Assembly: GCF_947490405.1 (NCBI RefSeq)
Contig: NZ_CANLGU010000001.1
Location: 496,001-560,000, forward strand
Length of the DNA: 64,000 nt
Reading direction: 5' to 3'
DNA from: an uncultured Algibacter sp.
GTDB taxonomy: Bacteria; Bacteroidota; Bacteroidia; Flavobacteriales; Flavobacteriaceae
Shown here: positions 21,661 to 24,052 of the stretch, one piece after another
How positions within the stretch are numbered: the stretch's first letter is position 1
Layout: each line of letters opens with the position of its first letter
Notes under the pieces: generated by a model
The model's database searches: none
Seen by the model: only the letters and a program-made list of their open reading frames with translations
Told to the model about the DNA's origin: nothing
Made by a program: the position numbers and the translations under genes

Positions 21661-21819
21661 TGGGCGTTACCACAAGGGTCGGGCTATTCGTTACAATCTT
21701 TTTAAAAACGTCATTGTGAGGGAGGAACAACCGTAACAACCTGTTAAATTATAGTTTCCTAAGCAAATTGTTTTTTCTAAGGTTTTAAAAAGGATTTCCA
21801 CTGCTATCCCTAACGCGGG
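21661..21819. repeat. Intergenic dispersed-repeat-like sequence
   Basis: This non-coding stretch is bounded by GGGCGTTA and TAACGCGGG, so GCGTTA/TAACGC form a short terminal inverted repeat. Inside it is a segment with the look of a second repeat (TCATTGTGAGGGAGGAACAA at 21711-21730). The parts resemble multicopy intergenic sequences I recall from flavobacterial genomes, but only one copy lies in this window, so repetition cannot be shown here. Its local base composition is richer in GC than its surroundings. Confidence 0.45.
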
Positions 21820-21869: not shown

Positions 21870-21874
21870 AAGTT
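21870..21874. repeat. Possible left target-site duplication AAGTT
   Basis: AAGTT lies directly outside the left end CGTTTAACG of the nuclease cassette, and an identical AAGTT lies directly outside the right end at 23986-23990. Five bases can match by chance. Confidence 0.3.
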
Positions 21875-22013
21875 CGTTTAACGGTCTCGGCTATGAGTAG
21901 TTGCATGGGTTAGCACTCAACTTTGCAAGTACAGACCAGACTGAAAATCCGAGAGGAGTTTCAGAAGTAGGCGAGAACAAGCAATTACTTATAGCCATTG
22001 TTGTGTGTAGTGC
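21875..22013 (+). repeat. Left structured boundary element
   Basis: It starts with CGTTTAACG, then GGCTATGAGTAGTTGC (21889-21904) pairs with GCAATTACTTATAGCC (21981-21996) at 14 of 16 positions, the two exceptions being G:T pairs. A nested CTGAAA/TTTCAG stem (21941-21964) lies inside. It ends with TTGTGTGTAGTGC, one base before the nuclease stop codon. The folding suggests single-strand recognition or a structured RNA. Confidence 0.55.
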
Positions 22014-22014
22014 T

Positions 22015-23904
22015 TTAATTTTCATTTAATTTTTTTATTTCTCTAAACCAACCACTTATTTCTTCGTAAGATTTCATTTCAATTAATTGTTCTTTTGTAA
22101 TAAGTTTAGTCAATTTACCATTAGTTATTTGTTTAACTATCTTCTCATCATCAAATTTCTTTGTTTTATCTTTTACAATATTTGGAATATCAGAATTATT
22201 CCAGTCTCTTATTGATGAACAATCAATTTCAAATTCACTTTCATAAAGACTTGGATGAATGTAATTTTCCATTTCTCTCCTCAGAGTTAAGATTCCTTTA
22301 GAGTTGTCTTTCCTTTTATTGACTTTTTCAATCGAAGATTTGTATTGTTCGTTAGAGTCTTTATCATATAGATGAAATTCAATGATATTTGAACCTTCCA
22401 AATAATTCCTGTCAACCCAGTTTTTTAGAGATGAGCCACCCATTGGAATAATTTTAATTTTTTCTTTTTTTAAATCAATTATGTTTTTAAAATCTGAAAT
22501 ACTTTGATTTAAATTAAGTAAAAAGTTTATATCGTTTTCTCCTTCAACGCAGATTACTAATTTACCTAAGTATGAAGTAATACCTAAAGTCTCAGCTATC
22601 GCTTTTAGTTTGTTTTCATCTTGAATTACTTTATTAACACCATTAATTCTGTCAATTAAAATTAAATTCTCGTCTTTTGTTTGTTTTGCAATTTCAGGTG
22701 AGTGTGTTGTTAGAATTACTTGACTTTTTTCTTTTAAAGCGATTTCATTCAATGCATCTATGAGTAATTTCTGATGATTAGGATGTTGTGATGTTTCAGG
22801 TTCTTCAATTGCAAAAATTACGTTTTTATTTGACGTATTTTGTCTTTCTGCTTCGGCTCTAAAGTAATTTAGTAAAATAAGTCTTCTTACTCCACTACCT
22901 CTTTTGTTCATTGGTATATTATCGTCTCCAATAAATGAAAAAGCAAATAGGCTATCCCAAGCTTTATTTGTTACTTCAGGTTTTAAAACCTTAGCAAGTT
23001 CAGGGTTCATTTCCCCTAATTTTTTTATGGTTTCTTTTCCAATTAATTCTGCATTATCCTTTATCAACTTTTTGATTTCTTCCAGTTTGTCTATAACATT
23101 ATCAATAGCAGTTTTTGTAATGACTTTTAAAGGGTCTTGCACATCTTTATCAGTGTCTTTGTTTGCTCTATCAGACTGAAATAGAAAAAAGAGAGGCAAA
23201 TCAGTGCTAATACTATTCCAGATGTTTTTACTATCTTCTTTGTCTATTGGAAGTTCAATTGTTTTGAGTTCTAAATTATCAATGACAGAATAAATAGCTT
23301 TTCTTATATCGGCTCTTTTTCGTTTATCAATTGAAACAGGTACTACTTTATCAGTGTCTGGGTCATAAGGTCCAATTGACAATCCTTCATCTAAATTTTC
23401 TAGTTGATTATTATTCTGTTTTTCAGAAAGAGCAAATGCTATTTCGTCATTTTCAAGAACTTTTCTTAAGTCCTCAATTTTCAAAGTTGGTAAAGGTTTT
23501 TTAGAGTATTGTATTGGGTAATTACAAATTATGAATGTTTTTAAACTTGTAGCTGTTAGTTTGTTTTTACTACAATCCCATACTTTTTTTATTTCTAAAT
23601 CTCCGTCTGAATTTAATAAATATTCATCTGAAAGTTTTGTTTTAACATCAGTGTCTATTAAATATTCCTTATTCTTATCTATTTTAAAAGAACAAGCAAT
23701 TTCCATTTTAGATCCATTAAATACATTTTTATCATTTATATCAATTTTTGTTCTTCCTTGTCCAAAAAATATATCTAAAGCTTCTAATATTGTTGATTTT
23801 CCAATGTCATTTCTACCAATAATAACATTTAAATTTTCATCAAATTCAATTTCTATTGTTTGATAGCTTCTAAAGTTTAATAGTTTTAATTTTTTTAAAT
23901 ACAT
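22015..23904 (-). CDS. OLD-family ATP-dependent endonuclease (AAA ATPase plus TOPRIM)
   Basis: The 629-residue protein has an SMC/RecF-like ATPase half with Walker A GRNDIGKST at 30-38, an RGSGVRR signature-like segment near 335, Walker B IFAIEEPETSQHP near 363 and the H-loop TTHSPE near 397. A TOPRIM nuclease half follows, with the catalytic Glu in VICVEGENDINF near 450 and LYDKD near 510. This is the Overcoming Lysogenization Defect family, whose members degrade DNA in phage defence. No GajB-type helicase is next to it, so it is class 1-like rather than Gabija. The gene alone fills the cassette and lacks a clear TAnnTTTG promoter box of its own. Confidence 0.88.
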   Translation of the reverse strand: MYLKKLKLLNFRSYQTIEIEFDENLNVIIGRNDIGKSTILEALDIFFGQGRTKIDINDKNVFNGSKMEIACSFKIDKNKEYLIDTDVKTKLSDEYLLNSDGDLEIKKVWDCSKNKLTATSLKTFIICNYPIQYSKKPLPTLKIEDLRKVLENDEIAFALSEKQNNNQLENLDEGLSIGPYDPDTDKVVPVSIDKRKRADIRKAIYSVIDNLELKTIELPIDKEDSKNIWNSISTDLPLFFLFQSDRANKDTDKDVQDPLKVITKTAIDNVIDKLEEIKKLIKDNAELIGKETIKKLGEMNPELAKVLKPEVTNKAWDSLFAFSFIGDDNIPMNKRGSGVRRLILLNYFRAEAERQNTSNKNVIFAIEEPETSQHPNHQKLLIDALNEIALKEKSQVILTTHSPEIAKQTKDENLILIDRINGVNKVIQDENKLKAIAETLGITSYLGKLVICVEGENDINFLLNLNQSISDFKNIIDLKKEKIKIIPMGGSSLKNWVDRNYLEGSNIIEFHLYDKDSNEQYKSSIEKVNKRKDNSKGILTLRREMENYIHPSLYESEFEIDCSSIRDWNNSDIPNIVKDKTKKFDDEKIVKQITNGKLTKLITKEQLIEMKSYEEISGWFREIKKLNEN

Positions 23905-23922
23905 TCATTTTGCATTTTTTTC

Positions 23923-23985
23923 GCATTACACACAATGTGTTTACGGATATGCGTCGTTTTAATGACTTATATCCGACGTTAAACG
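23923..23985 (-). repeat. Right structured boundary element
   Basis: Read on the minus strand it starts CGTTTAACG, has a CGGATAT/ATATCCG hairpin, then runs to TTGTGTGTAATGC. It shares outer and inner cores with the left element in inverted orientation but is about half as long, lacking the nested stem. It lies 18 bases upstream of the nuclease start codon. Confidence 0.55.
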
Positions 23986-23990
23986 AAGTT
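23986..23990. repeat. Possible right target-site duplication AAGTT
   Basis: It is identical to 21870-21874 and abuts the right end CGTTAAACG. The match supports insertion but is too short to prove it. Confidence 0.3.
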
Positions 23991-24052
23991 ATCGTTTTTT
24001 TCTGACAAAATCAAGTAAGCTTCTTTTATAAAAAGCAACAAACAAATAGTAT

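Follow-up and report, generated by a model that had tools for sequence, protein, structure and literature searches.

Integrons are among the described systems closest to the locus analysed here, and their recombinase IntI is marked by an additional domain in the available excerpts of two accounts (PMC9668308, PMC2426708). The Bacteroidota, or the Bacteroidetes/Chlorobi group, figure among integron holders in excerpts of PMC8618304 and PMC2426708, and the accessible part of the IntegronFinder 2.0 report names only Salinibacter ruber M1 for a complete integron in the Bacteroidetes proper and, earlier, only In0 (PMC9024848). By default this program reports CALINs only with at least two attCs, according to the same excerpt (PMC9024848), so that a lone attC would be dropped. 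The Treponema 'atypical' integrons have a co-directional IntI (excerpt of PMC3607928). The titles, abstract openings and excerpts consulted on integrons, CALINs, solitary attCs and atypical integrons contain no description of insert-less recombinases or of dispersed sockets, as we term the recipient sites described below.

The window, by which we mean the whole analysed stretch of 64,000 nucleotides from an uncultured Algibacter sp. of the Flavobacteriaceae, contains a gene for an OLD-like ATPase. This gene is probably a mobile cassette that occupies a socket and belongs to an integron-like system, whose recombinase would serve both a cassette array and, in trans, the sockets; the socket is probably an attC-like recombination site of ~52 bp that is positionally stable and lies behind a promoter-like motif. 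What we read directly from the sequence is the cassette and its socket, where the crossover falls, that cassettes are exchanged, and that array and recombinase are linked; which recombinase acts on the sockets we infer. The locus resembles integrons in the complementarity of R'' to the cassette start, the folded attC, the crossover before TT, the mostly unrelated co-oriented ORFs and an array headed by a tyrosine recombinase, which here lies on contig C7 and not at the window locus. Unlike in integrons, the recombinase lacks the IntI-specific additional domain and is N-extended in 25 of 27 cases, and outside the array there are numerous dispersed recipient sites that have a promoter-like motif. 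The locus shares with CALINs or single attCs a lone cassette with an attC and no integrase nearby, but its recipient site is conserved and repeated, and cassettes are exchanged there between species. In the Treponema systems, by contrast, the enzymes are identified as IntI, and dispersed sockets are not described in the excerpt seen.

The pdif modules of Acinetobacter plasmids likewise comprise single genes that are bounded by inverted sites and mobilised in trans by a tyrosine recombinase; in the present system, in contrast, a folded attC travels with the mobile unit, and one recipient site stays in place. Since the additional domain is the usual defining mark of IntI, a search that relies on this domain would miss the present system. 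It looks to be a relative, so far unrecognised, of the integrons through which antibiotic resistance spreads.

Anatomy of the window locus

The features of the locus are as follows (the arrow marks the predicted crossover).

21873..21883, minus strand: left outer core TTCGTTTAACG, equal to GTTAAACGAA on the minus strand; 3' half of the socket core, displaced beyond the cassette
Between 21882 (G) and 21881 (T), minus strand: predicted crossover within 21873..21883, from the junction-base analysis
21880..22011, minus strand: cassette attC, with R'' ACACAAC, stem GGCTAT-AGTA-TTGC / GCAA-TACT-ATAGCC and end ACCG↓TT
22001..22013, minus strand: left inner core TTGTGTGTAGTGC, the R'' region, complementary to its own cassette start (10/10)
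22015..23904, minus strand: cassette gene for an OLD-like ATPase of 629 aa, with AAA_15 and a weak OLD-like TOPRIM match
23923..23935, minus strand: cassette start GCATTACACACAA, a 12/13 inverse of TTGTGTGTAGTGC, reading TTGTGTGTAATGC on the minus strand
21882-23935, minus strand: whole cassette, from the start TTGTGTGTAATGC to the end of its own attC
23936..23987, minus strand: socket, an attC-like site with R'' TTCGTTTAAC, stem CGGATAT/ATATCCG, conserved CATTAAAACG and junction ACA↓TT
23977-23987: right outer core CGTTAAACGAA, perfect inverse of TTCGTTTAACG
23984..24016, minus strand: promoter-like motif of the socket, TTG-N20-TAACTTCG, which would read into the cassette

On the minus strand the order is thus the promoter-like motif, TTCGTTTAAC-hairpin-ACA, TTGTGTGTAATGC and the 629-aa gene, followed by GCACTACACACAAC, a hairpin element of ~130 nt, ACCG and TTAAACGAAC. 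The cassette begins (A)↓TTGTGTGTAATGC and closes with its own attC of ~130 nt, whose R'' is complementary to the start. This is the layout of an integron cassette (TTGTGTG ... attC ... G), here inserted in a second recombination site whose core is TTCGTTTAAC / (A,G)TTAAACGAA. The promoter-like reading of the motif presumes a -33/-7 consensus. Beside the varying stem of the socket stands the near-invariant CATTAAAACG, which resembles the outer core and could be an additional binding site of the recombinase.

The first-pass annotation had described this region as a one-gene defence-nuclease unit enclosed by two inverted elements without a recombinase, and our results bear it out in part: the one-gene cassette and the recurrence of the left element hold, the paired mobile ends do not, and the flanking AAGTT repeat is no general feature. 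A repeat search recovered the outer cores as perfect inverses and the inner cores at 12/13, at precisely the positions given, and the inner cores do lie 1 base and 18 bases from the OLD-family gene. The cores are real as inverted sequences, but the outer pair are the two halves of a socket core split by insertion and the inner pair the cassette start and the cassette's own R''. The two elements do not form the matching termini of a single mobile unit: the left is the cassette's own attC and the right a stationary recipient site. By length alone the inverted cores are unremarkable among the repeats of the region, in which the same search found 63 inverted pairs, several of them longer; their meaning comes from the recurrence of the right-element pattern in the genome. 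Both elements fold modestly better than shuffled sequences (z of -1.6 and -1.8).

The AAGTT direct repeat that had been proposed to flank the unit is present at 21870-21874 and 23986-23990, but such a repeat is found in only 2/48 sockets and so does not generalise. Because its copies each overlap an outer core by two bases, and equal 5-mers directly outside the cores occur in 0/48 sockets, we do not take it as a target-site duplication. Behind the outer socket core, at 21662-21819 of the window, lies a dispersed intergenic repeat reading GCGTTAGGGAT...GGTAACGCCC on the minus strand. It occurs within 220 bp of the outer core at 30/48 sockets, 25 of these at 61-68 bp (control: 26 of at most 3000 random pieces), and by eye congeners carry it in the intergenic region of the window without a socket.

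Sockets, cassette closure and exchange between species

A 33-nt pattern taken from the right element, allowing up to 3 mismatches, has 13 copies in the window genome and 65 in 8/10 genomes of the genus (own included), against 0 for the reversed control. The window genome accordingly contains at least 13 near-identical sockets in dispersed positions. Of the 64 socket loci examined, which include that of the window in four species, 38 are closed and have a terminal core, 10 are empty, consistent with the earlier expectation of empty sites in relatives, and the remaining 16, being open, decayed or cut by a contig end, were left unscored for complementarity between start and R''. A promoter-like TTG-N17..23-TANNTTCG is present in 55/64 of the sockets. 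The socket's own stem appears modestly supported and that of the attC better: in the alignment of 64 copies 94.2% of cells are paired and 3/7 pairs are changed on both sides, the covariation score is 0.070 against 0.075 for one slid control, and in the predicted consensus fold a different helix forms, which shows no compensatory changes. With up to 15 candidates scored per genome, the socket model (R1) matched 67/299 genomes of the family, from 59/236 genera; a wider sample gave 5/395 socket-positive genomes at E<=1e-5, all from this same family, as were the genomes listed, and we make no claim of sockets beyond it.

Complementarity of at least 9/10 between start and R'' is seen in 32/38 closed sockets (the other 6/38 fall below it) against 3.3% of 1406 swapped pairs that were searched likewise, and the longest ORF is forward in 33/34 closed sockets having an ORF of at least 60 aa. 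For the junctions we required complementarity of at least 8/9 and left the terminal base free in the search. In the empty sockets (n=10) the base before TTAAACGAA is A in 7 and G in 3; in the filled sockets (n=31) the 5' junction base is likewise A (22) or G (9), and the 3' junction base is G in 31/31. Seven terminal-core sockets under the complementarity limit, which were left unscored, have G (5), A (1) or C (1) at the 3' position. The junction bases thus place the likely crossover at (A/G)↓TT, and the invariant 3' G is what one would predict if strands were exchanged immediately before TT, with the G contributed by the attC of the cassette. Two sockets (L135 and L156) hold a second cassette resembling an ORF-less mini-cassette that is found alone in other sockets, and we accordingly rejected a strict capacity of one cassette per socket.

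In sister species the same socket position is empty or filled with other genes, and we read this as cassette exchange. When orthologous sockets were matched by 0.9-kb flanks and shared cassettes defined by blastn at E<=1e-5, 0/13 pairs filled in both species, with both flanks matched, had common cassette DNA; at four loci one species has a filled socket and another an empty one, and at one locus both are empty. The window locus itself holds four different cassettes in four species, in keeping with the earlier prediction of unrelated genes at this site in relatives: an LRR protein replaces the OLD-like gene in the sister species (neighbouring gene at 94% protein identity), and further, other genes occupy it in G007 and G008. 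The G002 locus is read as a decayed empty socket, G005 has other sequence with only a core remnant, and the socket was not seen at this locus in G001, G003, G006 and G009. One locus has a common cassette (99.8% over 1267 bp; upstream flank 94%), and G007 and G008 each have two unrelated sockets that contain near-identical ORF-less mini-cassettes.

The attC family and a candidate recombinase

The left element had been said to resemble sequences that recur in other Flavobacteriia genomes, and BLAST finds relatives in other Bacteroidota, on plasmids of Persicobacter and Flagellimonas. Among the 5 plasmid records matched, the window attC reaches 89% identity over 92% of its length on pPP2 of Persicobacter psychrovividus, where it matches in 17 places (the best copies in Persicobacter are 89-93% identical), and 90% over 83% on a Flagellimonas plasmid, behind a dihydrofolate-reductase-like gene. 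On that plasmid (Flagellimonas marinaquae, NZ_CP092416.1, L032) erm(F) with a XerA-like recombinase stands on one side of the dihydrofolate-reductase-like gene and its attC, and a Tn3 transposase on the other. In the pPP2 stretch almost every annotated gene is co-oriented, with attC elements recurring between the genes; R'' matches the start of its own cassette in the pairs compared by eye, and the attC matches cover about 100 kb of the Persicobacter record.

A covariation analysis of 28 attCs found compensatory changes in 7/12 predicted pairs of the stem. The attC model (R2) was trained on these 28, which include that of the window, so that its match there arises by construction; the array and Persicobacter matches lie outside the training set. 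Seven genomes searched with it have 19-72 matches each, with 72 in the window genome, where they are partly clustered near the ends of contigs C1, C9 and C7 and on C3. This kind of attC forms arrays on the Persicobacter plasmid and in the window genome. Viral contigs contained no exact copy of the 26-nt attC head.

Contig C7 of the window genome encodes a 372-aa tyrosine recombinase followed, up to the contig end, by at least three same-direction cassettes with attCs. A 379-aa relative stands at the head of the Persicobacter array; it is 44% identical over residues 97-372 (27% to the window genome's own XerC), with its N-terminal part outside the BLASTP alignment. In both arrays, as judged by eye, the first cassette follows a sequence that ends AACAA↓GTT, at what may be an attI position. 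We chose 40 loci of this recombinase family from the match lists, not at random; 36/40 (18/20 + 18/20) have at least one same-strand attC downstream, and two of the other four end within ~0.2 kb of the recombinase gene. A motif search found the ORF intact in 27/40. In all 27 readable recombinases the distance from ArgI to HxxR is 92-93 residues, compared with 97 in the own XerC and ~135 in IntI4 (counted on the alignment), so the IntI-specific insertion is absent from them. The extension of the own-genome enzyme has no Pfam or solved relative (best E 0.15). A second N-extended recombinase of 383 aa (L193, G000:C4:1-5000) has no attC downstream and an opposite-strand attC upstream, and in L208 (G007:C6) the recombinase gene is broken by a TAG stop while the array is kept.

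The IntI model TIGR02249 had no match over its cut-off in the own genome (0/1) or in three records (0/3), nor in the family genomes (0/299), where the limit was strict, the controls were silent too and no known IntI-bearing genome served as positive control; the absence of IntI therefore rests mainly on the missing insert. At E<=0.001 the own genome has 14 matches to this model, none of them on C1, the contig of the window, in agreement with the earlier reading of a one-gene cassette without an adjacent recombinase. That reading had further held that nothing inside the unit could move it; a candidate recombinase is present elsewhere in the genome, at the head of the cassette array. A recombinase beside one socket (C7:198 kb) was rejected as the integrase, its best NCBIfam model being XerC; its neighbours fit what we take to be the gene order of a housekeeping xerC.

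In the family at large, recombinases of this kind (E<=1e-40, N-extended or not) occur in 192/299 genomes. They are present in 56/67 socket genomes and absent in 11, compared with presence in 136/232 others (Fisher p 1.4e-4), and are thus associated with sockets without being obligatory. Two single-contig genomes, G202 and G240, have 11 and 15 socket matches and 32 and 19 attC matches, and when re-searched at E<=1e-15 yielded only recombinase matches of Xer length. The 10 array loci searched had no R1 match beside the recombinase, and the tested socket cassette genes had no close relative in 577 kb of recombinase/array and plasmid loci, with one 29% methylase match.

Competing explanations and the contents of the cassettes

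In the reading that we favour, the cassette entered the socket core between (A/G) and TT, parting its two halves; the insert-less, mostly N-extended, IntI/XerA-like tyrosine recombinase from C7 would excise cassettes through their folded attCs and insert them into the array and, in trans, into scattered sockets, where the promoter-like motif would express them. Among the alternatives, a cassette exchange driven mostly by homologous recombination across the common socket and flanks, with the site-specific system extinct or minor, is the least remote, and even so we regard it as unlikely: it could account for the one orthologous socket with a 99.8% common cassette and a 94% upstream flank, for the recombinase of G007 broken by a stop and for the socket genomes without a recombinase, but the junction bases fit a single crossover step in 31/31 scored sockets, near-identical mini-cassettes occur in unrelated sockets of one genome and recombinase ORFs are intact in 27/40 loci. 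It is somewhat less probable still that the housekeeping XerC/XerD pair moves the cassettes, as in pdif modules, in place of the array-heading enzyme. Such a role would suit the Xer-length recombinases of the socket genomes G202 and G240 and the lack of a local recombinase at the window gene; it sits poorly with arrays of the same attC family directly behind another recombinase family and with attC stems that fold with covariation, as folded attC stems are, to our knowledge, no known Xer substrate.

That canonical IntI once carried an ordinary integron cassette to a chance secondary site, leaving a single-attC CALIN, seems very improbable. The integron-like anatomy of the attC is compatible with it, and off-target insertion is an explanation published for CALINs (excerpt of PMC8618304), but the recipient is a conserved, repeated site with many copies, and IntI was found over the cut-off neither in the own genome nor in 299 family genomes, a search that had no IntI-bearing positive control. 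Least credible of all is a non-autonomous DDE-type element, with the 11-bp outer cores as terminal inverted repeats, AAGTT as target duplication and a transposase in trans. The perfect inversion of the outer cores and the 5-bp repeat recommend it at this one locus; across the sockets, AAGTT-type repeats occur in 2/48 and outside the cores in 0/48, the empty sites (10/64 loci) retain the right-hand element complete, along with both halves of the core, and most cassettes end in their own attC. A DDE transposon or MITE with a target-site duplication outside its inverted repeats is rejected by the 0/48.

Returning to the integron-like reading, we give an even chance to a wider proposal, namely that the Flavobacteriaceae possess a distributed integron in which one insert-less, N-extended recombinase serves the array and, in trans, more than 12 promoter-bearing sockets throughout the chromosome, its N-terminal domain, rather than the IntI insertion, recognising the folded attC. 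If the enzyme does work without the insertion that IntI is reported to need, direct tests would become possible of how integrons arose and of the minimal needs of single-strand cassette recombination. With sockets, moreover, a genome could have many cassettes expressed simultaneously, each from its own promoter-like motif, compared with only the first few of an array.

The OLD-like protein, whose closest known counterparts are the OLD, Gabija GajA and PARIS AriA ATPases, matches the AAA_15 (2e-69; 235 bits), AriA and GajA models. It differs from these counterparts in that the cassette has no partner gene and that the OLD-like_TOPRIM Pfam match is below the cut-off (15.4 vs 23.2 bits); VEGEND and LYDKD are visible in the protein and may be TOPRIM motifs. 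Its family membership suggests an anti-phage role. The attC model was run on 15 of 30 loci with related OLD genes and gave one match, in Crocinitomix algicola, in which a 77%-identical gene has the start GTTGTGTGTAATGC before it and an attC directly behind its stop; this species thus holds the same OLD cassette, start and attC included. By eye, a Pelobium relative (71%) is cassette-like with another attC type, and relatives in Roseivirga (78%) and a Flavobacterium (76%) are without such cassette ends.

Family scans covered 44 of 45 listed cassette ORFs (one reverse ORF of L126 was excluded), and among the first 25 families listed, other socket cassettes encode Gabija-like proteins, a NACHT protein, a C5 methylase, a Fic protein and a caspase-domain protein. 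Some sockets thus carry defence-like genes (OLD, Gabija-like, NACHT, C5 methylase). Several others, as judged by eye, encode lipoproteins.
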